From the NCBI GenBank assembly GCA_009746045.1, contig RPFO01000050.1:2973216-3037215 (forward strand): a stretch of 64,000 nucleotides of DNA, given 5' to 3'. Positions within the stretch are counted from its first letter, which is position 1. Each line of letters begins with the position of its first letter. This DNA is from Mesostigma viride. Its lineage: Eukaryota; Streptophyta; Mesostigmatophyceae; Mesostigmatales; Mesostigmataceae. The translations under genes were made by a program, and so were the position numbers. Under the pieces are notes generated by a model. It did not search any database. It was given only the letters and a program-made list of their open reading frames with translations, and was not told the DNA's origin. Positions 6,292-64,000 of the stretch are shown one piece after another.

Positions 6292-6321
6292 GCAGGATGT
6301 AAGAATATGCGTTAACCTTAG

Positions 6322-6768: not shown

Positions 6769-6920
6769 GGCACTGCACACATCAATTGCAAAAGAGAGAC
6801 TTTGATGGGATCATATAAACAAACAGGGAATGCATTTACAATTAAATGGGAAACGGGGAAGCTGCTCGTGAATGGGGGTTATGTATGCTATGGTGGCAAA
6901 CGAACATAGCAAGGTCTTAA

Positions 6921-8618: not shown

Positions 8619-8730
8619 TTAATAAGGTTGAGCGAAACGAAGATTAGAGTGCATAGTCAGTGCAGAAACTGAGATACTTGCTAAGTAAAATACATGTATG
8701 CCAATGCAAAAAGAGACAAGAATAAAACAA

Positions 8731-11700: not shown

Positions 11701-13406
11701 CCGACCAAGAACCGACCAAGAAGCGACCAAGAGCCGACCAAGAAGCGACCAAGAAGCGACCGAGAGCCGGCCAAGCACCGACCAAGAACCGACCAAGAAC
11801 CGACCAAGAACCGACCAAGAACCGACCAAGAGCCGACCATGAAGCGACCAAGAGCCGACCAAGAAGCGACCAAGAGCCGACCAAGAACCGACCAAGAACC
11901 GACCAAGAACCGACCAAGAAGCGACGAAGAAGCGACCAAGAGCCGACCAAGAGCCGACCAAGAACCGACCAAGAACCGACCAAGAACCGACCAAGAAGCG
12001 ACCAAGAACCGACCAAGAGCCTACCAAGAAGCGACAAAGAAGCGACCAAGAAGCGACCAAGAAGCGACCAAGAAGCGACCAAGAAGCGACCAAGAAGCGA
12101 CCAAGAAGCGACCAAGAAGCGACCAAGAACCGACTTAGAACCGACCAAGAGCCGACCAAGAGCCGACCAAGAACCGACCAAGAACCGACCAAGAACCGAC
12201 CAAGAACCGACAAAGAAGCGACCAAGAAGCGACCAAGAAGCGACCAAGAAGCGACCAAGAACCGACCAAGAAGCGACCAAGAAGCGACCAAGAAGCGACC
12301 AAGAACCGACCAAGAGCCTACCAAGAGCCGACCAAGAACCGACCAAGAACCGACCAAGAAGCGACCAAGAGCCGACCAAGAAGCGACCAAGCACCGACCA
12401 AGAACCGACCAAGAACCGACCAAGAACCGACCAAGAACCGACCAAGAAGCGACCAAGAAGCGACTAAGAAGCGACCAAGAAGCGACCAAGAAGCGACCAA
12501 GAACCGACCAAGAAGCGACCAAGAACCGACCAAGAACCGACCAAGAGCCTACCAAGAGCCGACCAAGAACCGACCAAGAACCGACCAAGAAGCGACCAAG
12601 AGCCGACCAAGAAGCGACCAAGCACCGACCAAGAACCGACCAAGAAGCGACCAAGAGCCGACCAAGAACCGACCAAGAAGCGACCAAGAAGCGACCAAGA
12701 AGCGACCAAGAACCGACCAAGAAGCGACCAAGAAGCGACCAAGAACTGACCAAGAGCCTACCAAGAGCCGACCAAGAACCGACCAAGAACCGACCAAGAA
12801 GCGACAAAGAAGCGACCAAGAACCGACCCAGAGCCGACCAAGAGCTGACCAAGAACCGACCAAGAACCGACCAAGAAGCGACCAAGAGCCGACCAAGAAG
12901 CGACCAAGCACCGACCAAGAACCGACCAAGAAGCGACTAAGAACCGACCAAGAACCGACCAAGAAGCGACCAAGAAGCGACCAAGAAGCGACCAAGAAGC
13001 GACCAAGAAGCGACCAAGAAGCGACCAAGAAGCGACCAAGAACCGACCAAGAAGCGACCAAGAAGCGACTAAGAAGCGACCAAGAGCCGACCAAGAACCG
13101 ACCAAGAGCCTACCAAGAGCCGACCAAGAACCGACCAAGAACCGACCAAGAAGCGACCAAGAGCCGACCAAGAAGCGACCAAGCACCGACCAAGAACCGA
13201 CCAAGAAGCGACCAAGTACCGACCAAGAACCGACCAAGAACCGACCAAGAACCGACCAAGAAGCGACTAAGAACCGACCAAGAACCGACCAAGAAGCGAC
13301 CAAGAAGCGACCAAGAAGCGACCAAGAGCCGACCAAGAACCGACCAAGAACCGACCAAGAAGCGACCAAGAAGCGACCAAGAACCGACCAAGAACCGACC
13401 AAGAAC
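8731..13406. repeat. 11-bp tandem array, about 425 units
   Basis: The array is made almost only of three 11-bp variants: GACCAAGAACC, GACCAAGAAGC and GACCAAGAGCC, with occasional GACTAAGAAGC and GGCCAAG forms. Eleven is not a multiple of three, so each strand reads in every frame as an 11-residue periodic peptide (minus strand: RFLVGSWSVLG types). The long open frames here are a by-product of the repeat. It begins exactly at the end of the inverted duplication. Confidence 0.97.
8905..10845. repeat. Higher-order repeat of 972 bp inside the 11-bp array
   Basis: The order of variants over about 8,905-9,870 repeats almost exactly 972 bp later, including rare marks such as GACCGAAAACC (8,930 and 9,902) and ACCATGCAACC (9,811 and 10,783). 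So a block of about 88 units was duplicated as a whole. Confidence 0.85.
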
Positions 13407-16540: not shown

Positions 16541-17180
16541 CTTAGTTTTTAACCCGACGGGTTTCCTTATGATGCGTTCAAAATGGCAGCTGATGGCATG
16601 ATTACTTAACATGTGGCGCGCGCAAAGAGCCTGTAGTCGTGCAGTTTACCCTCAATAATCAATCAATCTGAGTCTCGAGTCCACGTTGGAGTCCACTGAC
16701 CCCCCGACTAGAATTTCCGACCCCCAATGTTGCACGCAAGCTATGCCTGCCATGCTTTTTCTATTTCCTAACACCCACAGTTGGGGGATCATAGTCATTG
16801 ACAATTTCTCCCCGTTGCTTTTTATGCTGCATATCCAACTATATCTGAGTAAGAGGGGTCGAGCGGATGACGCCGACATGGTTTGCATATACCTTCATAG
16901 TGGCTTCAAATCGTCATATTCTTGAAGCGCGGTCAGTTCAGCCCACAGAACCTTACGTACGTCTTACCAAGGTACATGCACGGTGGGGACGCGGTCGGCC
17001 GGTCGGGGTTTGCCTGCTTTCTTTACCCAACCAGGGACATGTTCGTGATTTTCTTGCAGCGCTGGAAGATCAGTCCCGGGAAGAACCGCCTGCGACCCCT
17101 GGACCGTTCCGTTCCAACGATACCTGTGACTCTTCAGCATCAACGGTACGAATAGCACGAACCCGCCCACGTGCTTGGCC

Positions 17181-17291
17181 GCCATACCCGTTCCTAGTCA
17201 TGCCATGCTCCTTCCTAGTCATGCCATGGTCGTTCCGAGTCATGCCATGGTCGTTCCTAGTCATGTCACTCCCGTTCCTAGTCATGCCATT
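17181..17291. repeat. 21-bp minisatellite, short array (5 copies)
   Basis: The unit GCCATACCCGTTCCTAGTCAT repeats with variants and ends in an (AATT)n run at 17,290. It is repeated at 36,405-36,515 in copy 2. Confidence 0.9.
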
Positions 17292-17739
17292 AATTAATTA
17301 ATTAATTAAAATGATAGCTCCGTTGGGAGCATATGTAACACATAGCCCTGAGAAAAGGGCATCTATGGGTTTGTAATACAATCAGGGCTACAACCTGCAG
17401 GTGGAGGATGTACAACTGTCACCTGCTCTGGGTGCACAAGGTGCACCTGCACCGCCATGATGGTTCATGCCTCCTTAACAAGCACAGGCACCCAGGGGGG
17501 GGCTTGAGGAGAGGGCCTAGAAGGCCTGCATGACATATGGGGTGGAGGGTATGTGGCTAGGCTATAGCTGGTGTACACATGGCATCTCAGCAGAGAGTAA
17601 CTCCCTGCATAGGCATCGCATGGCTAAATTCTTAATGCATCATCCATGGGAGGTCCCATTGTAGGCTGGGCGCGGCTAAATACTGAAAGCATCATCCATG
17701 GGGGCCATTATGGGCGCACATGCGCGTGGGCCACGTCAT

Positions 17740-18550
17740 GCCATACCCGTTCCTAGTCATGCCATGGCCGTTCCTAGTCATGCCATGGTCGTTCCGAGTC
17801 ATGCCATACCCGTTCCTAGTCATGCCATGCCCGTTCCTAGTCATGCCATACTCGTTACTAGTCATGCCATGCCCGTTCCTAGTCATGCCATACCCGTTCC
17901 TAGTCATGCCATACCCGTTCCTAGTCATGCCATACCCGTTCCTAGTCATGCCATGCCCGTTCCTAGTCATGCCATGGCCGTTCCTAGTCATGCCATGCCC
18001 GTTCCTAGTCATGCCACACCCGTTCCTAGTCATGCCATGCCCGTTCCTAGTCATGCCATACCCGTTCCTAGTCATGCCATACCCGTTCCTAGTCATGCCA
18101 TACCCGTTCCTAGTCATGCTGTACACGCTCCTAGTCATGCCACACCCGTTCCTAGTCATGCCATACCCGTTCCTAGTCATGCCATGGTCGTTCCGAGTCA
18201 TGCCATACCCGTTCCGAGTCATGACATACTCATTCCTAGTCATGCCATACCCGTTCCTAGTCATGCTGTACCCGTTCCTAGTCATGCCATGGTCGTTCCG
18301 AGTCATGCCATACCCGTTCCGAGTCATGACATACTCATTCCTAGTCATGCCATACCCGTTCCTAGTCATGTTGTACACGTTCCTAGTCATGCCACACCCG
18401 TTCCTAGTCATGCCATGCCCGTTCCTAGTCATGCCATGCTCTTTCCTAGTCATGCCATACCTGTTCCTACTTCCTAGTCATGCCATACCCGTTCCTAGTC
18501 ATGCTGTACACGTTCCTAGTCATGCCATGCCCGTTCCTACTCATGTCATG
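17740..18550. repeat. 21-bp minisatellite, long array (about 38 copies)
   Basis: Same 21-bp unit as the short array 450 bp to the left. Because 21 is a multiple of three, the minus strand reads as a heptapeptide repeat (MTRNGYG), and plus-strand frames as SHAIPVP and FLVMPYP. No flanking coding signal supports translation. Confidence 0.92.
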
Positions 18551-18879
18551 GTTTTTACCTGTATGTCCTCTGCCCTTGGTGCCAGCGTTCTGTGAGCACC
18601 TCAATGTATGGTCTGTCGTGAGAACAATAATGGCAGTCTAGCCAACGTCGATACGTTCGAGTTGGGCTCATAGTTAGTTGGTTGTTGTCGACCCACACAA
18701 TAGCTGTTGCTTGTGTTAATTGGGAAATGTGTTTTATTGCAGCTGAACATGTATCAAGCTTCATTGCAATCTAGCTGTCGCGAACGATTCCTCTAAATCA
18801 TCTTTAGTGGTGATAGGTACCATTCGAGTGCCAACGGTGGAGACGTACAGGTTCTCACATAGAGGTGGGTTAACTCGTA

Positions 18880-19580
18880 ACAGTGCTATCAATTGCGTGC
18901 GATAAGAACGTGACTGCACCACGTGAACAAGAGACAATTATCAATATTATAATTAACAAACATCACGTGAGCATTATTAAGTTTACATCATTTGCAGGTT
19001 GTTGCTTAGCACGCTTATAGACCATGTACCCCCTCTCACGGACATTTAATTAATTAATTAATACCACGTGACTGCGTGAGCAGTATCCTCATGAAGGGAA
19101 TGGATGACATGCGAAAGAAACTATCTAAGCACGGGTAGCAGGATTGTGGGCCCCGCGGCCGGTGGCACTGTGCCGACCGTAGCGGGTTACCCGAGGTGCC
19201 CCTACCGGACATTAATTAATTAATTAATAGACACGTGACTGCGTCACGTGAGCATAAGTCCTCAGTGGGAGGGGAACATGGGATGGAATGGATGGTATAA
19301 GCTATCTAGGTCCTAGTTACAGGGGTGTGGGCACCGCGGCCCGAATCGCTATGAATGCCATACTTGGTCACACGCGGAGCCCCCACAGACTTGGGGGTGG
19401 TCTCCTTCATCACTACTTGCCATCTATCCTTGCGCACCATCTGCCTTAATATTACAGACTACCGGACATGTGTTACGTGATCTCCCAACGGAGTAACGCT
19501 TCAATTCAATGCAACTAATACGTTAGACAGTATAATATTATCGTGACATGCATCACGTGAGCATAATGAATGCAATATCA
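18880..19580. repeat. Degenerate repeats of about 160 bp with (TTAA)n and CACGTG motifs
   Basis: Two adjacent units (from about 19,046 and 19,207) each begin with an ATTAATTAATTAAT run, then CACGTGACTGCGT, a GGGAATGGATG-like stretch, a CTATCTA block and an ACCGCGGCC-like block. Further palindromic CACGTG sites lie at about 18,920, 18,964 and 19,555. A related piece (CCTGAGGACTAATGCTCACG) occurs inverted at about 51,446-51,470. The block is 3' of the transposase gene; its function is unknown. Confidence 0.65.
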
Positions 19581-20210
19581 AAGCGACTACCGGCGCAGGC
19601 CAGAAATCTGGAGAATATGTCAATATCAACAAGTACTAGGAGCATAGAGTGTACGCATTATGACTGTCCTGGTTAGCCTTGTACTCAGACCCTACGTGGA
19701 TCATGCCACGACAAATGAGGGTCGTACACACAACTCTTGGTTTAGCTCCGAGACCATGCAGTCATTGGCAAACTTTGGAATTACCTCTTTCTCGATACTG
19801 TGCCAAAATTCCAAAACAAAAGAGGTGGTAGCCCAACATTGCATGTGACGACTGAAATCACTTTTTAGGTGTTAAAATTATATGAGTAAATATTTTAATC
19901 CATTAATTCATGCTCCATGCATCACCATCCCACCAGCATTTTGTATTGAAATTCATGACTAAGGTGTAGATGAATTGGAAAACGTTGAGAGCACTGTTTA
20001 TCAAACCCAAATCAATCACAATTGAATTATGAACATGTTATGTTGTCTCTTTGATGTTGCTAAAATGAAAATGCAATTATTTTATCCATGCTTTAATACA
20101 ATAACAACATTTTAACTCATCCGCCGGACATGGCACCACCCAAGGGCAGCTATCTCGTGACCGAGTGGTACAATGGACAAGGCTGGGATGGACTAATTGA
20201 AGGGGATGAA

Positions 20211-28223
<8,013 letters not shown>

Positions 28224-29818
28224 CTGTGATGCCCCTGAAGCTTCAAACGTCTCTCCACCCCATTGGCCGGTTCCGACGACCTTTTTTATGGTTCATTACA
28301 GGGAGGATGCCGGGGGGGAGCAGAGGGGAGGGGCGGGAGGGGGGAGACAAACAATAGAAGAAAAATTTAGAACCAGAAAGTTAAGCAATTTGTGGGTTGT
28401 AATAGTAAAAGAAATCAGTAAACCTATAATGCAGAGTATTGGAGTAATGTCGTATTGCATGGGCTGGACGGGAATTTCAGGGGGGGAAAATGATAGAAAA
28501 AGTTTTGATGGCTTGTCAGAGCTATTGCTCTCGTCTTTTGTACGTCTTATTTAGGCGGAAATATAATAACACAAGGTGTGAGTCAACAAACAAACCAATA
28601 AGGACGCGCAGTCACCACAATGCAGGTGGCAAAGACCCCGTACAGCAAGCACATAAACAATTTTACCACTTTCAGTTGTATAGCCCCGCTAGGCATTGAA
28701 GAAGCCATGCTGAGTTTACCCGGTAAAGATCACATGGCATACTCTACCAGACAACAAATACCGAGTTAAGGGCCAAGGGGCAAGGACCCAGGGATATTGT
28801 ACCTTCATGCACGCACGCATGACTGCACCTTACCTTCCACTCTTGTGTTGACTGCGGTCCGTGAGCATAAGTCTCAGTGGGGGGAACATGGGATGGAATG
28901 ATGGTATTAGCTATCTAGGTCCTAGTTACAGGGGTGTGGCACCGCGGCCCGAATCGCTATGAATGCCATACTTGGTCACACGCGGAGCCCCCACAGACTT
29001 GGGGGTGGTCTCCTTCATCACTACTTGCCATCTATCCTTGCGCCACCATCTGCCTTAATAATTACAGACTACCGGACATGTGTTCGTGATCTCCCAACGG
29101 AGTAACGCTTCAAATTCAATTGCAACTAATACGTTAGACAGTATAATATTATCGTGACATGCATCACGTGAGCATAATGAATGCAATATCAAAGCGACTA
29201 CCGGCGCAGGCCAGAAATCTGGAGAATATGTCAATATCAACAAGTACTAGGAGCATAGAGTGTACGCATTATGACTGTCCCTGGTTAGCCTTGTACTCAG
29301 ACCCTACGTGGATCATCCACGACAAATGAGGGTCGTACACACAACTCTTGGTTTAGCTCCGAGGACCATGCAGTCATGGCAAACTTTGAATTACCTCTTT
29401 CTCGATACTGTGCCAAAATTCCAAACAAAAGAGGGGTAGCCCCAACATTGCATGTGAGACTTGAAATCACTTTTTAGGTGTTAAAATTATATGAGTAAAT
29501 ATTTTTAATCCATTAATTCATGCTCCATGCATCACCATCCCACCAGCATTTTGTATTGAAAATTCATGCTAAGGTGTAGATGAATTGGAAAACGTTGAGA
29601 GCACTGTTTATCAAACCCAAATCAATCACAATTGAATTATGAACATGTTTATGTTGTCTCTTTGATGTTGCTAAAATGAAAATGCAATTATTCTATCCAT
29701 GCTTTAAATACAATAACAACATTTTAACTCATCCGCCGGACATGGCACCACCAAGGGCAGCTATCTCGTGACCGAGTGGTTACAATGGACAAGCTGGGAT
29801 GGACTAATGAAGGGATGA

Positions 29819-35690: not shown

Positions 35691-36404
35691 CTGCCCGGCC
35701 CCCGGTGCACCGAAGAAGACACATAGATCCATACACATACAAGATCATGAATTAAGCGCAACCTTTGTCCTCAAAGGGGACCAGGAAAAAAAAAAAAAAG
35801 GTAACCTCGAGGGGGGCCAAAACAAATGTACTAACTTATTGTAGCCCAACTGGTTAAACGCAAGTCCGCAGAGGAACGGTGCCACATGAAAAGGTGCAAA
35901 TTTGTGGCCACAAGTGCAATACACCCTAGTACAACGAGCGGATAATACGGCAATACCTGAGTTAGCTATGCCTGCCATGCTTTTTCTATTTCCTAACACC
36001 CACAGTTGGGGGATCATAGTCATTGACAATTTCTCCCCGTTGCTTTTTATGCTGCATATCCAACTATATCTGAGTAAGAGGGGTCGAGCGGATGACGCCG
36101 ACATGGTTTGCATATACCTTCATAGTGGCTTCAAATCGTCATATTCTTGAAGCGCGGTCAGTTCAGCCCACAGAACCTTACGTACGTCTTACCAAGGTAC
36201 ATGCACGGTGGGGACGCGGTCGGCCGGTCGGGTTTGCCTGCTTTCTTTACCCAACCAGGGACATGTTCGTGATTTTCTTGCAGCGCTGGAAGATCAGTCC
36301 CGGGAAGAACCGCCTGCGACCCCTGGACCGTTCCGTTCCAACGATACCTGTGACTCTTCAGCATCAACGGTACGAATAGCACGAACCCGCCCACGTGCTT
36401 GGCC

Positions 36405-36515
36405 GCCATACCCGTTCCTAGTCATGCCATGCTCCTTCCTAGTCATGCCATGGTCGTTCCGAGTCATGCCATGGTCGTTCCTAGTCATGTCACTCCCGTT
36501 CCTAGTCATGCCATT
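36405..36515. repeat. 21-bp minisatellite, short array (assembly copy 2)
   Basis: The same sequence as 17,181-17,291. Confidence 0.9.
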
Positions 36516-36963
36516 AATTAATTAATTAATTAAAATGATAGCTCCGTTGGGAGCATATGTAACACATAGCCCTGAGAAAAGGGCATCTATGGGTTTGTAA
36601 TACAATCAGGGCTACAACCTGCAGGTGGAGGATGTACAACTGTCACCTGCTCTGGGTGCACAAGGTGCACCTGCACCGCCATGATGGTTCATGCCTCCTT
36701 AACAAGCACAGGCACCCAGGGGGGGGCTTGAGGAGAGGGCCTAGAAGGCCTGCATGACATATGGGGTGGAGGGTATGTGGCTAGGCTATAGCTGGTGTAC
36801 ACATGGCATCTCAGCAGAGAGTAACTCCCTGCATAGGCATCGCATGGCTAAATTCTTAATGCATCATCCATGGGAGGTCCCATTGTAGGCTGGGCGCGGC
36901 TAAATACTGAAAGCATCATCCATGGGGGCCATTATGGGCGCACATGCGCGTGGGCCACGTCAT

Positions 36964-37774
36964 GCCATACCCGTTCCTAGTCATGCCATGGCCGTTCCTA
37001 GTCATGCCATGGTCGTTCCGAGTCATGCCATACCCGTTCCTAGTCATGCCATGCCCGTTCCTAGTCATGCCATACTCGTTACTAGTCATGCCATGCCCGT
37101 TCCTAGTCATGCCATACCCGTTCCTAGTCATGCCATACCCGTTCCTAGTCATGCCATACCCGTTCCTAGTCATGCCATGCCCGTTCCTAGTCATGCCATG
37201 GCCGTTCCTAGTCATGCCATGCCCGTTCCTAGTCATGCCACACCCGTTCCTAGTCATGCCATGCCCGTTCCTAGTCATGCCATACCCGTTCCTAGTCATG
37301 CCATACCCGTTCCTAGTCATGCCATACCCGTTCCTAGTCATGCTGTACACGCTCCTAGTCATGCCACACCCGTTCCTAGTCATGCCATACCCGTTCCTAG
37401 TCATGCCATGGTCGTTCCGAGTCATGCCATACCCGTTCCGAGTCATGACATACTCATTCCTAGTCATGCCATACCCGTTCCTAGTCATGCTGTACCCGTT
37501 CCTAGTCATGCCATGGTCGTTCCGAGTCATGCCATACCCGTTCCGAGTCATGACATACTCATTCCTAGTCATGCCATACCCGTTCCTAGTCATGTTGTAC
37601 ACGTTCCTAGTCATGCCACACCCGTTCCTAGTCATGCCATGCCCGTTCCTAGTCATGCCATGCTCTTTCCTAGTCATGCCATACCTGTTCCTACTTCCTA
37701 GTCATGCCATACCCGTTCCTAGTCATGCTGTACACGTTCCTAGTCATGCCATGCCCGTTCCTACTCATGTCATG
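36964..37774. repeat. 21-bp minisatellite, long array (assembly copy 2)
   Basis: The same sequence as 17,740-18,550, with no difference that I noticed. Confidence 0.92.
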
Positions 37775-39434
37775 GTTTTTACCTGTATGTCCTCTGCCCT
37801 TGGTGCCAGCGTTCTGTGAGCACCTCAATGTATGGTCTGTCGTGAGAACAATAATGGCAGTCTAGCCAACGTCGATACGTTCGAGTTGGGCTCATAGTTA
37901 GTTGGTTGTTGTCGACCCACACAATAGCTGTTGCTTGTGTTAATTGGGAAATGTGTTTTATTGCAGCTGAACATGTATCAAGCTTCATTGCAATCTAGCT
38001 GTCGCGAACGATTCCTCTAAATCATCTTTAGTGGTGATAGGTACCATTCGAGTGCCAACGGTGGAGACGTACAGGTTCTCACATAGAGGTGGGTTAACTC
38101 GTAACAGTGCTATCAATTGCGTGCGATAAGAACGTGACTGCACCACGTGAACAAGAGACAATTATCAATATTATAATTAACAAACATCACGTGAGCATTA
38201 TTAAGTTTACATCATTTGCAGGTTGTTGCTTAGCACGCTTATAGACCATGTACCCCCTCTCACGGACATTTAATTAATTAATTAATACCACGTGACTGCG
38301 TGAGCAGTATCCTCATGAAGGGAATGGATGACATGCGAAAGAAACTATCTAAGCACGGGTAGCAGGATTGTGGGCCCCGCGGCCGGTGGCACTGTGCCGA
38401 CCGTAGCGGGTTACCCGAGGTGCCCCTACCGGACATTAATTAATTAATTAATAGACACGTGACTGCGTCACGTGAGCATAAGTCCTCAGTGGGAGGGGAA
38501 CATGGGATGGAATGGATGGTATAAGCTATCTAGGTCCTAGTTACAGGGGTGTGGGCACCGCGGCCCGAATCGCTATGAATGCCATACTTGGTCACACGCG
38601 GAGCCCCCACAGACTTGGGGGTGGTCTCCTTCATCACTACTTGCCATCTATCCTTGCGCACCATCTGCCTTAATATTACAGACTACCGGACATGTGTTAC
38701 GTGATCTCCCAACGGAGTAACGCTTCAATTCAATGCAACTAATACGTTAGACAGTATAATATTATCGTGACATGCATCACGTGAGCATAATGAATGCAAT
38801 ATCAAAGCGACTACCGGCGCAGGCCAGAAATCTGGAGAATATGTCAATATCAACAAGTACTAGGAGCATAGAGTGTACGCATTATGACTGTCCTGGTTAG
38901 CCTTGTACTCAGACCCTACGTGGATCATGCCACGACAAATGAGGGTCGTACACACAACTCTTGGTTTAGCTCCGAGACCATGCAGTCATTGGCAAACTTT
39001 GGAATTACCTCTTTCTCGATACTGTGCCAAAATTCCAAAACAAAAGAGGTGGTAGCCCAACATTGCATGTGACGACTGAAATCACTTTTTAGGTGTTAAA
39101 ATTATATGAGTAAATATTTTAATCCATTAATTCATGCTCCATGCATCACCATCCCACCAGCATTTTGTATTGAAATTCATGACTAAGGTGTAGATGAATT
39201 GGAAAACGTTGAGAGCACTGTTTATCAAACCCAAATCAATCACAATTGAATTATGAACATGTTATGTTGTCTCTTTGATGTTGCTAAAATGAAAATGCAA
39301 TTATTTTATCCATGCTTTAATACAATAACAACATTTTAACTCATCCGCCGGACATGGCACCACCCAAGGGCAGCTATCTCGTGACCGAGTGGTACAATGG
39401 ACAAGGCTGGGATGGACTAATTGAAGGGGATGAA

Positions 39435-48917
<9,483 letters not shown>

Positions 48918-52359: not shown

Positions 52360-54131
52360 CTACGCCCCGCGTGGGTCATCTGTGAAGTCATCACCCCAGG
52401 CCTGCGAACACAGGTCAACCTCAAAAGCCACTTGGTAGGGGGACACCTTCTGTCGACCCAGCCGGGACAGCTCCACCCACGACCCTCTGGGCCACAGAGA
52501 CAGGAACCCAGCGAAGTACTGGGGATGGGTGAATAGGAGTGTCAGCGCCGACCGATCCACCACCCCACAACGGTGCTCTCGAACAAAGTGCACCCCCATC
52601 ATGAAAACCTCCATACGCACGTGATCATCGTTGATCGACACCGTCCGGGCCCCTACAATATCGGGCGCCACCAGATTAAGAAAGACACTCCCCTCCGCTG
52701 GAGCCACCTTGGGAGGCGTGACCACGTGCCCCACCCCGTCGACCTGATATCGCCAATCCCACCAGTCTTCGGACCCGAACCGCACAGTATGCCCCACCGC
52801 AAGGGGAAAACGAGGGTCGTCGGGTTGCGGCAGGGGCAGGGGAACCCGGGGCAGAAAGGTGATCTCTACCTGTTCCCAGTAAGCCCCGCGATCCACAGCG
52901 AACCAAGGACCCGCTTGAAACACCAGAGGAGCGGGTAGGTGCGTGCCCGGGGGAACCTGAAAAGCCGGAGGTCCCTCGAATGTCACACACAGCTTCTCCG
53001 TGCGAGGTCCTGGCCCACCATGTCTCACCGCTCTGCCCGGTACCGGTAGTATGAAGTCCCCCAATGACCACTCCTCGTGACCAGGAGCTCTGGAAGCCGC
53101 ATCATAGCCCACTGAGGTGGCCGCAGAATGATCGCCTTGACGACCGTGCTGGACCATCAGGCGCTGTATCAGGTCCTGTCCTGATTGTACCGCAGCTACG
53201 AGCGCTTCCAGGCGCATCACGGGCTCCGCTGGTACCAGAATGTCCGTTCCGCTGGGGCCCTCCGCGACCCGAGGTGGAGTCTCTGCCATGGTGCGTCGGC
53301 ACGGTTCCTCCGCAGAAGGGTGCGAGGGTCGGCCCGACGAAGTGGGCCGGGTGTGACCCTCCGCAGGACGTGGCATTGATGAGCCGGCTGGTGCGGGCCG
53401 GGGACGTGGTTCCAGGGAGACCAAGAAGGTAGGCTCCGGTGGTTCCAATGAGACAAGGAAGGTGGGCTCCTCTTGGCCCACATCCGTCGGAGGACCCACG
53501 GGGGCCGCAACCGGGGGCTCGCCCGGCCCCGGCCGGCTGTTCTGTCCTAGCCGGAACTGCTCCCGTCGTATCCGACCGCGGTCGCCGAGACTCTCGCTCC
53601 AATTCCACCGCCGACCCCCACGTGCGCTCCCAGTGCCGATCAACCGGGCGACGAGGTGGTGGTGACGCGCGGCGAGCAGGGCGTACCTCCGTTCCCGAGT
53701 CCGAACGGGAACGCGAGCGCGATGACGGTGAAGGCGAGCGCCGACGTACAGGCCGGTCTGCAGCACGCCGAGAAACTGGTTGGCTGCCCCCGCCCCAACC
53801 CGTGGACCGCGGGCGAGACCCTCGCCCAGAGGGGCGCCCCCAGCCCATCGCCGGCGGTGGCGCCTCGAAACGCGTCACAGGACGATGTCCTGCGCCGCCC
53901 TCCAAGGAGCCCCCAGAAGGTGGATCCCTTGGAGGAGGACGAGGAAGAGGGCGGGGAGGGTAGTCATCAGAATCGGAGTCGTCACCCTCGCTCCCATCAT
54001 CCTGGTCCTCGTCGTCCATCGCCACGATGCGATCCAGGGCCTGCCGTAACGAGTACTGACCCGCGCGCATACACTTCTCGCCCCGCAACGCCCCGTTCCA
54101 ACGGGAGGTATCGAGGAAAGTAGTTCTCCAG
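52360..54131 (-). CDS. Chromovirus 3' accessory ORF region, downstream part (frame-shifted)
   Basis: Two overlapping minus-strand frames look coding. The first covers about 54,110-53,500: acidic DDEDQDDGSEGDDSDSDD, then Arg/Ser-rich SPSPSSRSRSRSDSGTE. The second runs from about 53,560 to the stop at 52,360 with a globular-looking C-terminal half (WWDWRYQVDGVGHVV, VFLNLVAPDIVGARTVSIND). A short repeat (PEPTFLVSLEP) occurs twice in it. The switch of frame near 53,500-53,560 implies a frameshift, an intron or decay. The region lies between pol and the 3' LTR, where a simple chromovirus has no gene. I do not recognise the family. The upstream part lies beyond the inserted transposon at 63,041-63,796. 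Confidence 0.55.
54129..54131 (+). other. Candidate target-site duplication (CAG), left
   Basis: CAG directly precedes the left terminal repeat and recurs at 63,038-63,040 after the right one. Three bases can match by chance, and one of them could belong to the repeat itself. Confidence 0.4.
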
Positions 54132-54163
54132 CCCTACCAGCCATTTAGAATGTACTCCAGCAC
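54132..54163 (+). repeat. Left terminal inverted repeat (32 bp)
   Basis: Starts CCCTACCAGCCATTTAGAAT and ends CTCCAGCAC. It is the perfect reverse complement of 63,006-63,037. A second AATGTACT motif follows at 54,168-54,175. Confidence 0.9.
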
Positions 54164-54234
54164 GCAAAATGTACTTCGTACCGAAGTTTGTCTTTTTATG
54201 CTGAAAATTGTCATGCATGATGTTTGCAACCAAA

Positions 54235-54960
54235 ATAGACCTCGTACAAAGTTTGGTATCGATCGGACGTCATCTTGGTGACATTTGCTAGCAATAAAGG
54301 TACATTTTTGTCATTTTAAATTAAATTAAATAGTAATAAATAGGAAACAGTACTAAATCACGTCAAACCATCATGGATATTTGCAAGCAACCTAATTACC
54401 ACTAGAATAGACCATGCACAAAGTTTGGGGTCAATCTGAACTCAAAATAGTGACGTTTGCTAGCATAAATACTGCATTTTTTGCCATTTTCAAGCATTTT
54501 GCTCAGTGTAAGCTACTAAACAAAATCAAACTACGTCATAAAGCTATGAAATGTTGAAAGCAACCTAAACACCACTAGATTAGACCATGGGCCAAGTTTG
54601 GGCTCTGTTTGATGTCAAAATAGTGACGTTTGCTAGCATAAATGGTGCATTTTTTGCCATTTTCAAGCATTTTGCTCAGTGTAAGCTACTAAACAATATC
54701 AAACTATGTCAGAAAGCTATGAAATGTTGGAAGCAACCTAAACACCACTAGATTAGACCATGGGCCAAGTTTGGGCCCCGTTTGATCTCAAAATAGTGAC
54801 GTTCGCTAGCATAAATGGTGCAATTTTTGCCTTTTTCAAGCATTTTGGTAAGTATAGTTGCCTCAAACTAAGTCAGAAAACTGTGAATTGTTGTAAATAA
54901 CCTGTTTGCCACTACATTAGACCATCCTCAACTTGTAAGGTCAGGCATAGGTAAAGGTAG
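54235..54960 (+). repeat. 173-bp subterminal tandem repeats, about 4 copies
   Basis: The landmark TAGACCATG recurs at 54,408, 54,581, 54,754 and (diverged) 54,918, spaced 173, 173 and 164 bp, with an older unit before it. Each unit contains GTGACGTTTGCTAGCATAAA. No such array is present at the right end. Confidence 0.88.
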
Positions 54961-55406
54961 TGACACTTGCTAGCACTATATATGAGCATATTATGCCTCT
55001 TTTCGCATATACACATAAAAAATAACAAGACAATATTAAATCATGGCCTTAATACAAGGTGTGCAAATGCAAATCACACCAGATCGGATGACCAATGATG
55101 GGTGGCTGCATGCCAACACATCTACCAGGCTGCAGGGTGAGAGGCCACATCGCTACAAGACAGGAATCCTCGCAATTGCACACCGCTAGTACACTGCATA
55201 CCCCAAGAGGATTTGGCTACAAGCCATAAAAGTTTGGCCATGCTAACACATTCTTCATCCAAGCAAACTGCAGCCTCTCCAAACTCAACTCATTGATTTA
55301 AATGCAACTAGGCCAGGCGTGCATGCTCTACTTGCCGATAACCATGAGTAAACTTGTGTACCACTTCATTCCATGCGCCGGTAGATGGCACCGTCTCATC
55401 TACCAG

Positions 55407-58400
55407 TCATCCCCGGCTCCCATTCCGCATCCTCCTCTCCCTCTCCCTCTCCCTCTTCCTCCTCCTCCTCCCCCTCCCCTCCCATTCTCCCTCCCCCTCT
55501 CCCTCCCCCTCTCCCTCCTCCTCCCCCTCCTCCTCCCCCTCTTCCTCCCCCTCTTCCTCTCCCTCTTCCTCCTCCTCCCCGCCTTCACTGTCACTGTGCA
55601 CAGCAGGGACGGCATCGTCCATGTGGGTGCCATCACCTGCATTCACGGTGCCACCCTCCTGTGGAAAGAAGCGAGCGCGGCCAAATGCCTCGACTGGGTG
55701 TGGGCAGCCGCACACAAACTGAGTCACCTCCTCCAGGGCATGATAGTCCTCATACTGCCCATCAGCCCACATCGCCTTGATGAGCAGGTGACCTCCCCTT
55801 TCCTGAACCTTAGTGACCCAGCCATGGAAGCGCTCCCTCTTCCTCGCTGTCCCCGGAAACAGGGCACACAGGCGCATCCCGATAAGCGCACGTGCTCCAT
55901 GCTCGGCAAAGTAGGCATTGCAGTCATCCTTTGCTGCTGCCCTGGCGGCGGTGGCAGTCTTGTAATGCTCAAAGTCAATCTGCGGGTGCTCTTTCAACGC
56001 CGCCACCGTGGCAGCTGACAGTTTGCCGGTACTGATCAGCTCAGGCTGGTGCACCTCTGCCGTACCGCCCACTGTCCAGTGCTGCAGGTGTACATCAGAA
56101 ATGGGGACCGTCATCCCTGCGCTGCCGCCACCTAATGTCACTCTAGAAAACTGGCCCGTCCACGTCGGTGCGTAGTAAGGAGAGGCGACAATGCTGTCAC
56201 GCTCCGTGCGATCGCCTTCCAGATCAAGGACCTTCACCAGCATGTGTGGTGCCCACGGCATTCCCTGCCCGCAGGTGACGGCTGGCCGCTTAACAACGAG
56301 TAGGTCGCCGCGTCGTATGAGGCTTCCATTCACCTTGAAGGTGTGCCTGCCAGAAATCAGTGTGCGCAAAGCGGGCGTTGCCGTTGATGTGCTCCCTCGC
56401 GCAGCGGGCGCACATGCGCGGTTGATCTGCGCTTGAATCTCGCGGGCAGGGCAAGCGACGTGCGAGATGACTTGGTTTACGGGCAGCCTCAGTGCCCGTG
56501 TTGCCCGCGCAACCGACTGGTCGCCTGCAGATCGCAGCGGCAAGGGTACCGCCTTGTTCGCTTGCAGTTCACGCTGCTCTTTGAGCTTTTGCTCCATGAT
56601 GTCGAACAGATTCTCGTTGTTGGCACGCACATCCTCCACGGACTTTGGCACCTGCTCAAACCATCTGTCCAGCAACTGCTGCTTCTCAGCGGAGACGATG
56701 TCGGGAAAGAGGCCGTGAAGGCTAGCGCAGGTACGTCTCCTGGCACCGCCCTCGTCCCATTCAAAAAGCGGTGCTAGACCGGGACTTCCCTTGGGGGCCT
56801 TGCCACGCTCCATGAGGAGGCACCCATAGACAGGATCTCCCTGCGGGGTGTACCCAATGGGCGTGACCCCGTCACAAGCCTCGCCGTTAGGCCCTGTGGG
56901 CTGCCACTTGTTCACCGGTGCATTTACCAACGTTTCTGATGCGGCTAGGCGCCAGCGGACATACACGTTCATATCCGGCCCTAGAAACACTTCGAGATCG
57001 AACACCTTCGAAGAGCGGTGCCTCTCCCTCTCGGCTTCGGTTGCTGGCTCATCATCCAAGTTGGCGGTGGCGCCCGCGCCCGCGCCTACGCCCGCGCCTT
57101 GGGTGGCGCCCGCGCCCGCACCCGCGCCTTCTCCCCCGCCCCCGCCCCCGCCTGCACCTGCGCCCGCGCCATGGGTGTCGCCCGCGGCTGGCTTCTTCGG
57201 AAATGCGTCCATCGATTTCACCCACCGGCCAAAGTCGCGGTGGATGCACCCATTCAGCCACGTTGTGACATCCAGTGCGGCGTCCACAATCTGCAAGCAA
57301 TAGAACAGTCATGCAATAGGAATAATGCAATATGAATAATCATTAGTATCAACGATGCGTTCATGCAGACGTGAACATGTGAAAAACAACAAGCATGCAA
57401 CAACGACTCCAGCACACTTAGTAAATACTGCTCATAATATCTGTAGCACATGCAACATGGTTAAAACACACATGGATGACCTATATGGCTGCACATGAAG
57501 TGTGCACATAGAGAAGACTAGAAATCCAGCATGATATCAAGAGCCATCCACACTAATATAAGTCTTACCGCAGCTTGGGGCTTCTTCGGGTTGAGTTGGC
57601 GCATCGAGTTTGTCGGGCCCTGCTCGTAGTAATGCTCAAATGCGATGCCAAGGCCCGCCAGCACATCATCAAATGTGATTAGTTTCACAGGTGGCCTGTC
57701 CGTCACCTTGTTCTTTAAGCCATTCATCCACCTGACGAACCAACCGAACCGTTGATCACAATCAATATGAGTGTGACCAACGGGTAGCCTGCAGAAGCGG
57801 ACACGGTCAAACAGTCCTCTCATGATGAGGACGGCGGCGAACCCCAGAACCTCGCGGTTCATGTTGTCGCCGCCACCGTCCACCTGCATGACCAAAATTC
57901 TGGGCAGCCCGTAAGCCCTTATCTCAGGGTCCGTGGCACTGTTCCACGACTGTTGCTCGCAGATTTCAATGATGTGACGAACAAGGATGGTGACAGTTAT
58001 CCTGCCCGAATTACCAGCCACAGCCTTGTTGATCACCCATGGTGCGACCACCCAGAAAAAAGTCCTCAACCCGTGTGCAATCGTACAAATCAGGGTGTAA
58101 GGTACGGTCAGGTCTCGCTTGGAAAGAAAGTCCTTAGGCGCCTCAGCCGCCGCAGGAATGTGAGTCCTCATGTGAGCGATAGCGTCCATGGACATGGAAT
58201 GATAGTGACCGTTCTTACCATTAAAGCGCCTGACAAGAAACCCCTTCCTCTCTACATGAAAAAGCTCTTCGTGGTTGGCGAGTTCCTCCTTCCAATACTC
58301 CCATCGTTTAGTGTCAGTGTGACGGGCAGCATTGATGTTGTTGTTGATGTTGCTGCAAATGTTGCACACGCCCATGATCTTCGTGCGAAACTTCTCCACG

Positions 58401-59230
58401 CGGACATAACTGGTTGCAACAACCTCCTCAAAGATGATCCGGAACAGAGTGAGAGACACGAAGGGAAAGTTGGCTTCCTTCTCGTTCTCCTTCACATAAG
58501 TGGCGAAAAGAGTCTGCTTGCATGGCTCCTCAATGAACGTAGTTCCGTTTGTCGGGTCATTCTGCACCGCGGGCTCCAACCACCGCCGAATCCACTCCTC
58601 CGCAAGCGCCCGTGCTTCCAGCCCCCTCTCCTTGCAGCCCCCGCGAGACTGCTTCTTGCCATGGTGGCCGCTTACATCTATGACGTGCTGTCCCTCGGCT
58701 CGCGCTTGGCGCTCATCAGCCACCTCGTGGACCGACGAGTGCCAAACGTGGTTGCTAATTTTCAGGCAGTGCCTGAATGCCGCCTCGCAAACCTGAAAGT
58801 GAAAAGGGGTCACAGACCCTGTGTTCTTATCCTTGACTCCCCCGTCGAGAACGAACCGGAAACCAGCGTCATGAACGAACTTGTGACGAGTAGATGACGA
58901 CATGGTCGTTATGGCGTCGTACCCCCCCTGGTGCAGCTGCTGCTTTATCGCCGCCTTCCTGTCCTCTTGCTTCCGCCCGGGCGCAAACCAGGCGCTCCGC
59001 AATGCCTGGAGATGTGATGTTTTAATGGGCTTCATGCACTCGTGGCCGCACTTACAGTCGACCGTCTCGTCGGTCACTAGGCTGCCGGCATGGGTGCTGC
59101 CGCTTAGCATTTCAGCTGCGGACTTGCGCTTCCCATGGTGTCCCATCAGCATGATAGCGAAAGCCAGGAAGCAGAGAGCCACGATTATGTCCCAGCAAAG
59201 CCATAGCACACCTTCCGTTTCGACCGCCAT
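55407..59230 (-). CDS. DUF7869-like probable transposase (two exons, 1,181 aa)
   Basis: Exons are 59,230-57,569 and 57,290-55,407, joined in phase 0 (GCTGCG|GTAAGA; CTTGCAG|ATTGTG). Features in order: a Cys cluster (CKCGHEC, about residue 50); a VCEAAFRHCLKIS segment; CNICSNI followed by a His and ERKGF; then the signature VMQVDGGGDNMNREVLGF...LPVGHTHIDCDQRFGWF. That signature matches the motif order I know for DUF7869 proteins. The Asp residues could be part of an RNase-H-like active site (inference). Exon 2 adds a Tudor-like patch (HGWVTKVQ...MWADGQYEDY) and a Glu-rich then Arg-rich tail encoded by simple repeats. The first 30 residues are hydrophobic, so translation may instead start at the later Met before GHHGKRK. 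Confidence 0.72.
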
Positions 59231-59333
59231 GTCGGCCACTAGTCCGGATAGCTCAACGTACACCTGACCTTGACACTAATCGCACAAACAGCCACAATTT
59301 TGCAAGCAAGAAGACATGGCTACCTCGGCATTT

Positions 59334-59660
59334 CATGAAATGTACTTCGTGAAATGCATTTCGTGAAATGTACTAAGGAACGTGATTGGCCGGCGTTCGC
59401 TCGCCAAATCTCGCAAAATGTACTAAGGCACGTGATTGGTCCCGCAAAATGTACTAAGGAACGTGATTGGCCGGCGAAGATTCTGTTTGCAACAATTAAA
59501 ATTCCCTACAGAATCTTCGCCGGCCAATCACGTTCCTTAGTACATTTTGCGGGACCAATCACGTGCCTTAGTACATTTTGCGAGATTTGGCGAGCGAACG
59601 CCGGCCAATCACGTTCCTTAGTACATTTCACGAAATGCATTTCACGAAGTACATTTCATG
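59334..59660. promoter_or_regulatory. Bidirectional promoter region with a 152-bp-arm inverted repeat
   Basis: 59,334-59,485 and 59,509-59,660 are, as far as I can read, perfect reverse complements around a 23-bp loop. The palindrome lies between the starts of the two divergent genes. Each arm holds CCAAT-box-like GGCCAATCACG twice, ACCAATCACGTG once, and several AAATGTACT motifs like those at the element's ends. A shared regulatory role for both genes follows from position and symmetry. Confidence 0.7.
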
Positions 59661-59736
59661 GAAGCTGCGCAGAAGACAGCCTGGAGGCAGAGGGAAAGTT
59701 CCTGTTCATCGTGAGTCGGGGTTAGCAATCACGGCG

Positions 59737-62075
59737 ATGTCGTCTGCCATGGCGGAGGAAGTCGGTAATGGCTGCCCTGCCGCGGTAGAGAACCTGGAGG
59801 AAGTAAAGATCGAAGAAAAAGCTAAGGAAACTAGCGCTGTGGAAGGGGGGGTGTTGGGCGACAACTCCAGACTTCGAAAGAGTTTTGTTCCGTGCCGGGG
59901 GGCTGTCGCTGGGTTGGAGCGCATGGCGCAGGATGCTAGGTCAGCCTCGGGGAGTGGCCTTATTAGCTCGGCCCCCGTGTTCAGCAAATGCCTAGTAAAG
60001 TATGGTGGCCACTTAGGGGTGCGTAGAATGGCTATGAATGCGGTGGCATCGAAGATGACGGCAAACAAAGGTGCCGTCATCAACGTCATTGACGTCGGTG
60101 GGGGGACGCCTGCAGGCGTGAGGCGACAGAATGGTGAGAATCAGCTGTACTTGCTGGATGCCACTATGCTGACAGAGTATACCAGCTTCTCCGAGGCGAT
60201 TCATCTCGACGTGCGCAAGGGGCAGGTAACCGGAAAGCCGGGATATCCCGACATCTTCGTCGCCTGCGAAACTGGGAACGACACATTCGCAATCGGAGAC
60301 TTGGTCACGTTTGATGGCCAGGCAGCTGTCGCTGACATGGCTTCTGCAATGGAGCTTGACGTGGCGACATTCTCCTCGGCCCTAATCGCTGGCCTGGTCC
60401 GTACGGGGGGTAAGAATGATAGAGAGGAGCAGTGGTTCTGCCTGGTAATGCCCCTTTTGAGCGATTCGCAGGGGTTTTACTCGCTGCCGTCCACATCACC
60501 GGGGAAGCAGTTTCCGGCAATGTGGTGTAAGCCGCGGTTGCTGGCAGTGGATCTGGGCGCCCATGGGGCAATTCGAGAAACTTCTCTGGTGGCCCAAGCT
60601 GTGGAAGCCGCCGCGGGAATATTCTATGACCCAAACTCTGCCATCAATGCATTAAAAACTACCTGCACGCAAGAGAAAGGCTGGAGTGTAAGTCTTGCAC
60701 GAATGCTTTCCTCTTTGATATAAGTGCCTTTTCCGTGGATAGATTGGGCTCTTTTTATAATAAATAAATAAACACATGGTAAAATGTCCTTGGGTTGTTT
60801 TGTCCTGTATGCACCTCCTTGCCCAACATCCAGGCTGTCGGCTACAAGGTGCCAGCGTCTACACCCCCTGCCACACTCCCAGCGCCGCCGCCAAGCACAC
60901 CACTTCCTGCCTCACTCCCCTCGGTGCCCCTGCTATGTGCACCCCCTGCCGTATCTTCAAGGGCAGCTGAAGGGACTCAGGACGACGACATGACACCGCA
61001 CAACAGCAGCGGGGATGGCGGTGACAACAGGTCAGACAAGTCTTACGGCTCGCCACCCGAGAAGAAGGGGAGGGTCAAGCAGGAGCATGCACCAGTGAAG
61101 CGCGAGAAGCATGTTCGCACTTGCACCAATGCATCTAAGCATGCCATTCCACCTGTGGTTGCTGATGCTGCCATTCCCATGGTGACTGCTGGTGATGCCG
61201 ACTTATCCGACTTGCGCTCGTCTCTGGATGAGGTCAAGAAGGAGTATGATGGCTTGAGGGAGGCAATGGCCGAGGCTCAAACCGATATCAAAAGCATCCT
61301 CGGGGGCGGTCGCACCAAGCCAAAGCGGGGGAGCCAGGCTGTCGAGTCGCTGCCCGCTCTGGCCAAGAAGCTTGGCTTAGCTGAGGGGAGGCTGGCCAGG
61401 GTGGAGCAGGAGCACGCAGCTATAAATGCAAAGCTGGCCACACTTCAAGGCACAGCTGCAGCACCAGCAACGGTGGGGAGCAGGAAGAAAAAGGGGCAGG
61501 AGGTTGTTGCTGCGCAGCAGTCACCACCAAAAGTTGAGGCGCCCGCTACCCCTGACATGCGAAAGGAGGTCAAGGAGCTGCGGGAGCGGGTGGAGCGACT
61601 GGAGCGCGAGTACCGTACTCCGTTGGTGGTCCCTGGTACTCCAGCCAGTGACTCCAGTCACGGGCTGGAGCAGCAAGGGCATCATTATTCAACACGGTCG
61701 AGTCCCCAGAGGGTGCTGCACTATGATGCAGCCATGGCTCAGCCCAGGGCTGTGACATATGTGGACGATCAGCGGGTGGTGTACACTGCTGCAGGAGGCG
61801 GATACCACAGGCAGGCAGCTCCCGTGACACTTCGCACGGCATTGGACCCTGAGGTTGAATACCACCGGCATGCACCTCCAGTGACAAGCCGCTCGACATA
61901 CAGTAACAGTGGGCAGGGCACTGCTTTCGTGCTAACCCCACCGGCAGGTCACCAGCAGTACTTCGACTCTGAATCAATCACGATGGTGCCTGTCACATCT
62001 CTCGCGCAGAACGTGGTGCACTTGCAGCCCGCTTATCCAGCAGTGGAGTATTCCATGAAGAAGCAACGGCGCTAG
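59737..62075 (+). CDS. Second gene of the transposon: two-exon accessory protein with a coiled coil (730 aa)
   Basis: Exons are 59,737-60,687 and 60,834-62,075, joined in phase 0 (GGCTGGAGT|GTAAGT; CCCAACATCCAG|GCTGTC). Exon 1 encodes a globular-looking 317-residue part (NAVASKMTANKGAVINVIDV, KPGYPDIFVACETGNDTFAI) with no motif I can name. Exon 2 is Pro-rich, then has a nuclear-localisation-like PPEKKGRVKQEHAPVKREK. Heptad-type helices follow (DLRSSLDEVKKEYDGLREAM, LRERVERLERE), then a Tyr/Pro-rich tail ending MKKQRR. An upstream in-frame ATG at 59,578 lies inside the palindrome and is less likely. It faces away from the DUF7869-like gene, suggesting a DNA-binding or partner role like other transposon accessory proteins; that is inference. 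Confidence 0.68.
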
Positions 62076-62799
62076 ATTAGTAGCTTGGCTATCGATGCCA
62101 TGCTTATCAAGGTCTATGAGGCATGGTGGGATGTCTTGTTAAGTGCTGCTCATTAAGGAGCACAGGTGAGCGATATGTTTGCAGGATGCTGTACATTGTC
62201 TTACACCATATGTTTTGTGGCTCATGTTTTCGCGCAGGCATTGATTATACATGTATCATGCATCAAGAATGGCATGACAACTAGGACTATGCATGTGCAA
62301 ACTAAGAGTAAAGCTCACGGGCTCTTTCATCAAGATAGCCATGCATGGAATATGTGTGCCCACAGTCCATCATGGTTGGAAACCGGGTGTTGCAACTTGC
62401 CTTGTTCAAAACTCTCTTAATAAAAGGCAACAATATAATTTGTGGTTGGTGATGTTTGGTGAGTTTCAAGAGTTTTGCCACAATGAAGTTGCTATTTTGC
62501 CATGTGCATGTGTCATGATTGTGAGGCGCTTTCTATGGTCCCTGATTATATAGCTGTCTCACTTAATACTTGCTTATCGCTACAAGATGAATTATGACAA
62601 CACCAGTATGCATGACATGCTTGCTTGATTACATGTGATCGCAAGGCGCAATGGGGGGCAGGATTGCCTCATTAGTCCGGTGGCTGCGACAGTTTTCGTG
62701 TAGCGAATCTGGGCGCGAGCAGGGTCGGGGAGCCGAAAGAGGCGGCAAAACCTGTTTTTCAAGGGTCTGGAACACTAGACAACTGCATAGCAGCCTTAA

Positions 62800-62890
62800 A
62801 ATTTGTTCAAATGTAGTTCAATGTAGTACATTATAGTAAAAATGTAGTACAAAGTAGTACAAACTAGTACAATGTAGTATTTTGTAGCAT
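62800..62890. repeat. TAGTACAA-type short repeats near the right transposon end
   Basis: Variants of ATGTAGTACAA repeat about seven times in 90 bp. They echo the GTACT core seen in the terminal repeats and promoter, but in a looser form. Confidence 0.6.
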
Positions 62891-63005
62891 ATACTAGTTC
62901 AACTACCTCCAGATGAGATCCAGGGGCCATGGGGACACTTTTTTTGCAGAACTGAACTTGAAACAAGCAAAAAAGAGGAAACTTGGAAAAACTCAAAATG
63001 TACTT

Positions 63006-63037
63006 GTGCTGGAGTACATTCTAAATGGCTGGTAGGG
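63006..63037 (-). repeat. Right terminal inverted repeat (32 bp)
   Basis: Reads GTGCTGGAGTACATTCTAAA through GGTAGGG, the mirror of 54,132-54,163. AAAATGTACTT lies just inside at 62,995-63,005. Confidence 0.9.
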
Positions 63038-63040
63038 CAG

Positions 63041-63796
63041 ATGCTTCCGCACCTCGGGTGGAATCAGGAGGAGCAACAGCCGTGGAAATGCCAGACCTGC
63101 ATCCAACGTGTTCATGCACGCATGACACAGGCACTCCCGCTCATGGGTTTCCCAGTCGATACCGACCACCACGCCGTCTCTCTCGGCGGTGCGGGTCTCG
63201 ATCTTGAACCCCACATTTCTTCGCACGAACCATCGAAAATCCTCCAGCTTAGCGGGGCCGACATGCGCCAGAATGGAATCGGCGCGGAGATGTGACGGCA
63301 TCTGGTTACGGCGCCGACGACGCCGCTCCACCAAGTCACCCGCCCGACCATAGTCGCGCACGAACACCCGGGGGTTGAATGTCTCCTCATTCAGCTCCTT
63401 CACTAGCTGCAGCGCGCGCGCGTCCGGAGCTTCGGGTCTGGACGACGTCTCGTGCCGGCCACCACCTCTCGAGCCCCCGGCCCTTAAAGCACCCCCTCGG
63501 ACTGCAGGCTCTCCGCGAGCTGTCTGCATCCTGTCATCCTGTTCTGGTAGAGGGGCCTCCGGGTAATCTGTCGTGTCCATGTCCACCAGATCTTCCTCAC
63601 TCGACTCCCCGTCTACTTCCCGGATTCCTGCCCCTACGGCCTCCGCGGCGCTGGCGGAAGTCTGACCCCTGGGAGGCGCCTCCGCGGCGTCCCCCTGCAC
63701 GGCCCACACACCACAAGCCAAGGCGTTAGTCGGCGTGTACCTGGTACCCGGCTCACACCTCACTCTCACCCTACACCGTACACCGTTATACCGCAT
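63041..63796 (-). CDS. Chromovirus 3' accessory ORF, upstream part, cut by the transposon
   Basis: The frame is open from an ATG at 63,796, eight bases after the pol stop, down to the transposon edge. It encodes an acidic start (SSEEDLVDMDTTDYPEAP), an Arg/Gly-rich linker, and a more globular part (ALQLVKELNEETFNPRVFV, DFRWFVRRNVGFKIETRTAE, ECLCHACMNT). An alternative is splicing in at the AG before GGGACGCC, about 63,694. It reads into the transposon and is interrupted there. The remainder of the region lies at 54,131-52,360, and a frame change is needed to connect the two. No family is recognised. Confidence 0.55.
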
Positions 63797-63804
63797 GTGG
63801 CCTA

Positions 63805-64000
63805 TTAATGCAATTGGTGTGTCTTCTTGTACGCTTCCAATAAGCGGGCGCAACCCGCTAACTCGGTAGAAGTGCGCCAGGAGTCCTCAGACTCATGCTG
63901 CGCGAATCGCCATCGCACACGGTACTGTCGCTGGGTCCCCCGACCTCGTTTGACATCCCGGTGTCCCACGATCGCTGCCACCTCATCCTCCTGTTCCCCC
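63805..64000 (-). CDS. Ty3/gypsy pol C-terminus with chromodomain (partial)
   Basis: The minus strand is open from the window's right edge to a TAA at 63,807-63,805. The 64 residues match a chromodomain: DEVAAIVGHRDVKRGRG, then QYRVRWRFAQHESEDSW, then ELAGCARLLEAYKK. That gives the expected order of hydrophobic-Glu/Ala-Ile, YxVxW, the acidic DSW and the C-terminal helix. A chromodomain at the end of integrase marks the chromovirus branch of Ty3/gypsy, where it guides integration to chromatin marks. The rest of pol lies outside the window. Confidence 0.8.
   Translation of the reverse strand, partial: GEQEDEVAAIVGHRDVKRGRGTQRQYRVRWRFAQHESEDSWRTSTELAGCARLLEAYKKTHQLH

Follow-up and report, generated by a model that had tools for sequence, protein, structure and literature searches.

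A complete two-gene DNA transposon of Mesostigma viride with a DUF7869 protein as its probable transposase

We analysed a stretch of 64,000 nucleotides from Mesostigma viride (contig RPFO01000050.1, positions 2,973,216 to 3,037,215), hereafter the window, in whose coordinates all features are given. The results showed that positions 54132-63037 hold an intact DNA transposon of 8,906 bp, a complete, mobile element with two genes, one encoding a protein with the domain DUF7869 and the other a partner protein. We consider it likely that this is an autonomous and very recently active transposon of the terminal inverted repeat (TIR) type, with the DUF7869 protein as its transposase and the partner as an accessory factor. 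DUF7869 is probably the transposase because multi-copy families share the layout and an end code, no other transposase is recognisable, and acidic residues are conserved. A preliminary description, made from the letters alone, had proposed such a role for DUF7869; the proposal gains strong support from sequence comparison, from which we infer the catalysis itself.

Ends, insertion sites and copies

The element is bounded by the perfect 32-bp TIRs that the preliminary description had reported, at 54132..54163 on the forward strand and 63006..63037 on the reverse strand. Counting the neighbouring G and C, both of which belong to CAG copies outside the element, extends the pairing to 33 bp. A 24-base end word, with up to three mismatches allowed, occurred twice in the window and not once in 100 shuffles. 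We searched the 440-Mb genome with the left 300 bp and scored the best 40 of 369 candidates. The boundary fell within 4 bases of 54132 in 38 of these 40 rows, and the other two were the window itself and one copy with a match 13 bases further out.

From these scored rows, 20 other copies, mostly on long contigs, were fetched with 500-bp flanks, giving 21 copies with the window. Six (L011, L019, L024, L026, L027 and L028) had no right end within the fetched stretch, and 14 of the 15 that were readable at both ends carried a perfect target site duplication (TSD) of 3 bp. Its sequence varied (CAG, AAG, CAA, AGG, TCG, CAC, GCA, TCA, GGA, ATA, ACT and GAG), with CAG in L020 and GCA in L023. In the window, the two CAG copies lie at 54129..54131 and 63038..63040. 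When the joined flanks were used as a genome query, all 40 scored matches (best 40 of 313 candidates) crossed the junction at 97-99% identity, and the three empty sites that were read base by base each contained a single CAG. These spanning matches and single-CAG empty sites demonstrate that the true duplication length is 3 bp and that the insertion target is a high-copy repeat, represented by the 313 candidates. The CAG flanks that had been put forward as possible are therefore a true TSD. The interrupted sequence had also been described as a retrotransposon gene; this was not confirmed. A high-copy repeat is indeed interrupted, but a Pfam scan of three open reading frames (ORFs) flanking the element returned no match.

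Eleven copies, the window and 10 of those fetched, were full length (8,901-8,913 bp). Outside one microsatellite they differed by two substitutions, one copy having a change at 54189 and a second copy at 63034. Exon 1 of the DUF7869 gene and both partner exons were identical in all 11; exon 2 of the DUF7869 gene was the same as in the window in one other copy and showed microsatellite differences in nine others. The microsatellite, at about 55447-55523, encodes the tail of exon 2, and its length differs between copies that are identical in other respects. In the window it is one base shorter than in most copies, so that the last residues form a basic run instead of an acidic one, and the window copy is frame-shifted at its very end relative to L010.

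In nine fetched copies (L019-L021 and L023-L028), the shared left 3 kb was about 94-97% identical, the DUF7869 core (element positions 3563-4596) was missing and the right half was different; that of L025 was rich in simple repeats. Where both ends could be read, they carried the same TIR with slight variation, and a 3-bp TSD was present in L020, L023 and L025 and not in L021. None of the three L025 ORFs scanned matched a known transposase. These core-deleted copies, which have multiplied in spite of the loss, look like non-autonomous passengers.

The two genes and the conserved core

The DUF7869 gene lies on the reverse strand. Its exon 1 (57569..59230, 554 aa) contains the DUF7869 match and conserved acidic residues, and exon 2 (55407..57290, 627 aa, with the stop codon) encodes the C-terminal region and a low-complexity tail. 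Removal of the predicted GT-AG intron between them (57291..57568, 278 bp) leaves the frame open, yielding a predicted protein of 1,181 aa, and a GT-AG-compatible sequence is present at the corresponding place in F2, a related family described below. The partner gene, on the forward strand, is predicted to consist of exon 1 (59737..60687, 317 aa) and exon 2 (60834..62075, 413 aa, with the stop codon and a coiled-coil-like segment), and splicing of its predicted intron (60688-60833) again leaves an open frame, with a product of 730 aa. Two divergent spliced genes, as first described, are thus what the gene models give.

Pfam PF25273 (DUF7869) matched the larger protein at 49.5 bits against a curated cut-off of 26 (E 4.9e-13), confirming its initial recognition as DUF7869-like. 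The match covers residues 455-518 of the 585-aa exon-1 ORF and only positions 55-119 of the 192 in the profile. The family is annotated as being of unknown function, whereas here a member above the curated cut-off sits within an intact mobile element. No main ORF of the element matched a known transposase in Pfam at E up to 1, and searches of NCBIfam and PDB likewise gave no match to one. The partner had been proposed as an accessory coiled-coil protein; it has a homologue in F2, and its coiled-coil-type profile matches were weak and all below the cut-offs. Profile searches revealed no recognisable enzyme domain in it.

We aligned 11 DUF7869 sequences, comprising those of the window, F2 and a further family, F6, together with eight of eleven fetched core fragments; L059, L061 and L064 were omitted as shorter or damaged near-duplicates. 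All 11 matched DUF7869 in Pfam, and six other families matched one aligned relative each, at E 0.011 or worse, which is chance level. In core numbering, C95 and C98 (CxxC), H126, D155, H192, D257, N262 and N264 were invariant, as was GHTHxDxDQ-FG at 291-302. According to PMC5718144, DDE/D enzymes are recognised by two Asp at or close to beta strands 1 and 4, with a further acidic residue beside a helix downstream. The DUF7869 core may follow this pattern, with two Asp that each come after a hydrophobic stretch and an acidic cluster ahead of a putative helix. Both AlphaFold predictions were poor (mean pLDDT 38 and 50.5). The second, a low-confidence model, would fit for D257, set directly behind strand 251-256, and for GHTHxDxDQ, set at helix 297-305, but not for the first Asp. 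The two Asp and GHTHxDxDQxFG probably form a DD(D/E)-like triad.

The two genes diverge from either side of a long palindrome (59331..59663), which has 156-bp arms of 99% identity, a 21-nt spacer and eight TGTACT/AGTACA words. Six more of these words cluster in the right subterminal region (62825..63018, forward strand). Of the 18 words in total, 16 fall within the palindrome or the terminal 260 bp, where none of five control word pairs occurred. The words are candidate binding sites and a lead only, because inverted repeats count each word twice and the F2 palindrome is without them. Degenerate direct repeats occupy the left subterminal region (54234..54925, forward strand), with an offset of about 172-175 bp and self-matches at 71-80% identity. 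An Rfam search of window positions 53000-64000 gave no match at the gathering threshold, and a PHROGs search gave no match.

We also observed a strongly hydrophobic segment (59200-59144), with a 19-residue mean hydropathy of 2.54, close to the putative N-terminus of the DUF7869 protein; close to the start of the F2 ORF the value was 3.05. The segment resembles a membrane anchor, which is odd for a transposase.

Related families and a shared end code

A genome search with the exon-1 ORF protein (best 75 of 1,427 candidates scored) returned 14 copies at 100% identity, among them the window, as well as an N-terminal piece with 91% identity. Relatives had 42-53% identity, and many of them were repeated and had open frames. 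We labelled the families F1 to F7, F1 being that of the window. F2 is 44% identical to F1 over exon 1 and 38% over the C-terminal exon, and its partner homologue is 26% identical over 257 columns (E 5e-17). Its layout, read from L029, L030 and end pieces, consists of divergent DUF7869 and partner genes with a palindrome between them, at the same place as in F1 but without TGTACT/AGTACA words. F2 has its own TIR, CCCCATGCACACCTGGATTTGTACT, at both ends, and the TSD TCC/TCC in the one copy read at both ends (C998), the genes of which lie outside the reading. F6 retains the DUF7869 core ORF within a TIR pair. Its right end (L031 and L032) reads CCCTA[AG]CCTAATATGGATTTGTACTAGAGCAC, and paired ends were found round other F6 copies by pattern search. 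The idea that F6 lacks inverted ends was rejected: L031, which starts at unrelated sequence, is the exception, since six other F6 left junctions share sequence past that point.

With the PF25273 profile as genome query, all 150 scored matches (best 150 of 275 candidates) were above the cut-off. They formed several groups of equal score. DUF7869 is therefore multi-copy throughout, as every scored match passed the cut-off and most fell in equal-score groups. Among the matches are other DUF7869 families, for example at C1835:204351-204878, with many copies and ORFs about 750 to 1,770 aa long, from which core fragments were aligned.

From the aligned ends of F1, F2 and F6 we made by eye an end code, CCCYA-N14-TGTACT-NN-AGCAC, which had 414 exact matches in the genome against 0 for the reversed pattern. 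A second pattern, from F2-like ends, had 188 matches against 0 for its control. DUF7869 places were compared with the ends among the matches listed, on contigs C1 to C557 and with C557:723136 left out; nearby rows of both pattern lists were entered by hand. Within 15 kb on each side and with both patterns, 11 of 20 places, the N-terminal piece included, lay within an inverted pair, 6 had one end and 3 had none. The first code alone gave inverted pairs around 10 of the 20, the chance of such a pair being about 5e-5 per place. Five further places, chosen for having ends, were excluded from this count.

Assignment of the transposase and its relation to known superfamilies

The evidence for mobility leads to a simplest account in which DUF7869 would cut and join the DNA with the partner helping. 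The DUF7869 protein would bind the ends through CCCYA...TGTACT..AGCAC and the subterminal GTAC-centred words. Its core may adopt an RNase-H fold, with a putative metal-ion site formed by Asp-364 (SMSMDA), Asp-466 (LVMQVDGGGDN) and an acidic residue of GHTHIDCDQRFG, in the numbering of the 585-aa exon-1 ORF. It would cut and rejoin DNA in a cut-and-paste mode, with insertion presumably at 3-bp staggered cuts and no obvious target preference. The partner may act as an accessory factor, perhaps by binding ends or bridging the complex, and the palindromic intergenic region could serve as the promoter.

Several observations weigh against this account. An element with two genes leaves the choice of the cutting protein between both products. 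One of the 15 readable copies, L021, which has 2,500 N inside, shows no 3-bp TSD and has ACCAT on both sides. Only the pairs round F4 and F7 come from families that played no part in making the end code, and these have ends like those of F6. Among the matches listed, F3 (2 of 2 places) and C369 had no matching end within 15 kb, and the first end code was absent within 20 kb of all 12 places of other DUF7869 families. Because of these 12 places, the ends mark a clade rather than the whole DUF7869 family; DUF7869 copies without these ends, which the preliminary description had taken to speak against its proposal, do exist. As for the fold, the second model had a pLDDT of 26 over the first Asp, which sits off any predicted strand, and Foldseek gave no match with E <= 0.001 and VIA-align only Z scores below 8, the model being too poor for either. 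Finally, no relative was found in prokaryote genomes or confirmed in viral contigs, so that no link to a known insertion-sequence family is available. Three pattern matches in viral contigs were rejected, as the overlapping ORFs were judged unrelated by eye.

The element was compared with known superfamilies through Pfam profiles and their general features, not through sequences, and on this basis it appears to match none of those tested. EnSpm/CACTA elements have CACTA termini, a 3-bp TSD, short TIRs, repeated subterminal words and two gene products. The element shares all of these except the termini, which are CCCTA, CCCCA or, at some right ends, CCCTG, and it matches no CACTA transposase profile. 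Zator also has a 3-bp TSD, but the element has no Pfam match to a known transposase; this comparison too is by profile and general features, not by Zator sequences. PIF/Harbinger duplicates 3 bp of the sequence TWA, whereas the TSD here is varied. Kyakuja-Dileera-Zisupton (KDZ) elements are likewise large eukaryotic DNA transposons, but their TSD is about 8 bp instead of 3 bp, and no KDZ profile matched (Pfam, E up to 1). KDZ elements are annotated in Chlamydomonas (PMC8226300). The superfamily list of Repbase Update 2015, as far as it is accessible in PMC4455052, has no entry under DUF7869. The term DUF7869 occurred in none of the 5.39 million papers searched, and among papers listed on the subject none dealt with such an element to judge by its title. 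A description under another name, for example in Repbase or Dfam, is possible.

The element might instead belong to a known superfamily, such as EnSpm/CACTA or Zator, but have diverged so far that its DUF7869 protein, the transposase of that superfamily, is beyond the reach of sequence searches. The 3-bp TSD without fixed sequence and the two-gene layout recall CACTA, and superfamilies share negligible sequence outside the triad, according to PMC5718144. Set against the differing termini and the failure of the element ORFs and 11 relatives to match any transposase in Pfam, or of the search to find one in PDB, we regard this reading as rather unlikely. The partner could instead be the transposase, with DUF7869 as accessory or cargo, given that F1 and F2 each carry both genes. 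The partner is, however, the less conserved of the two (26% over 257 columns compared with 44% for exon 1 of the DUF7869 gene) and lacks any recognisable enzyme domain, and F6 holds a DUF7869 core ORF within its TIR pair, so we give this reading very little credence. Even less is due to DUF7869 being a captured host gene in an element moved in trans by another enzyme. Non-autonomous derivatives with nearly the same ends (L025 type) would suit such a history, but DUF7869 is also retained in diverged families, flanked there by the ends of each family, it is multi-copy (150 of 150 scored matches above the cut-off), and no other transposase was seen with these ends among the few copies scanned, an association that the preliminary description had also listed as adverse to its proposal.

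Beyond DUF7869 as the transposase of this element, we lean towards the wider view that the entire DUF7869 family provides the catalytic domain of a eukaryotic DNA-transposon superfamily that has gone unrecognised, and that the many DUF7869 genes in genomes are transposons or domesticated ones. An unrecognised superfamily was already suggested in the preliminary description. The lack of a match to a known transposase in Pfam, NCBIfam and PDB would agree with it.

Elsewhere in the window, two direct stretches of 12.1 kb (16739-28849 and 35964-48084) are 99.9% identical, with a third, partial copy at about 95.9% between them. A MULE transposase ORF (PF10551, E 1.2e-15) lies in the first stretch together with an ORF for a SWIM zinc finger, and the second stretch has ORFs of the same lengths. 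Positions 8707-13406 form a long tandem array with offsets that are apparently multiples of about 11 bp. The array has long open frames on either strand, and its AT skew is strong (0.777 at 8001-12000). A near-perfect palindrome of 1.26 kb (98.4%) lies at 5667-6920.

These findings offer a testable function for a domain known only by its number. The near-identical and apparently intact copies, with exact ends, TSDs and empty sites, provide material for an excision or integration assay. Should the fold prove RNase-H-like, DUF7869 would represent a new superfamily among eukaryotic transposases; should it not, the case would be stranger still. Unless there is evidence to the contrary, annotated DUF7869 genes are best treated as suspected mobile elements.

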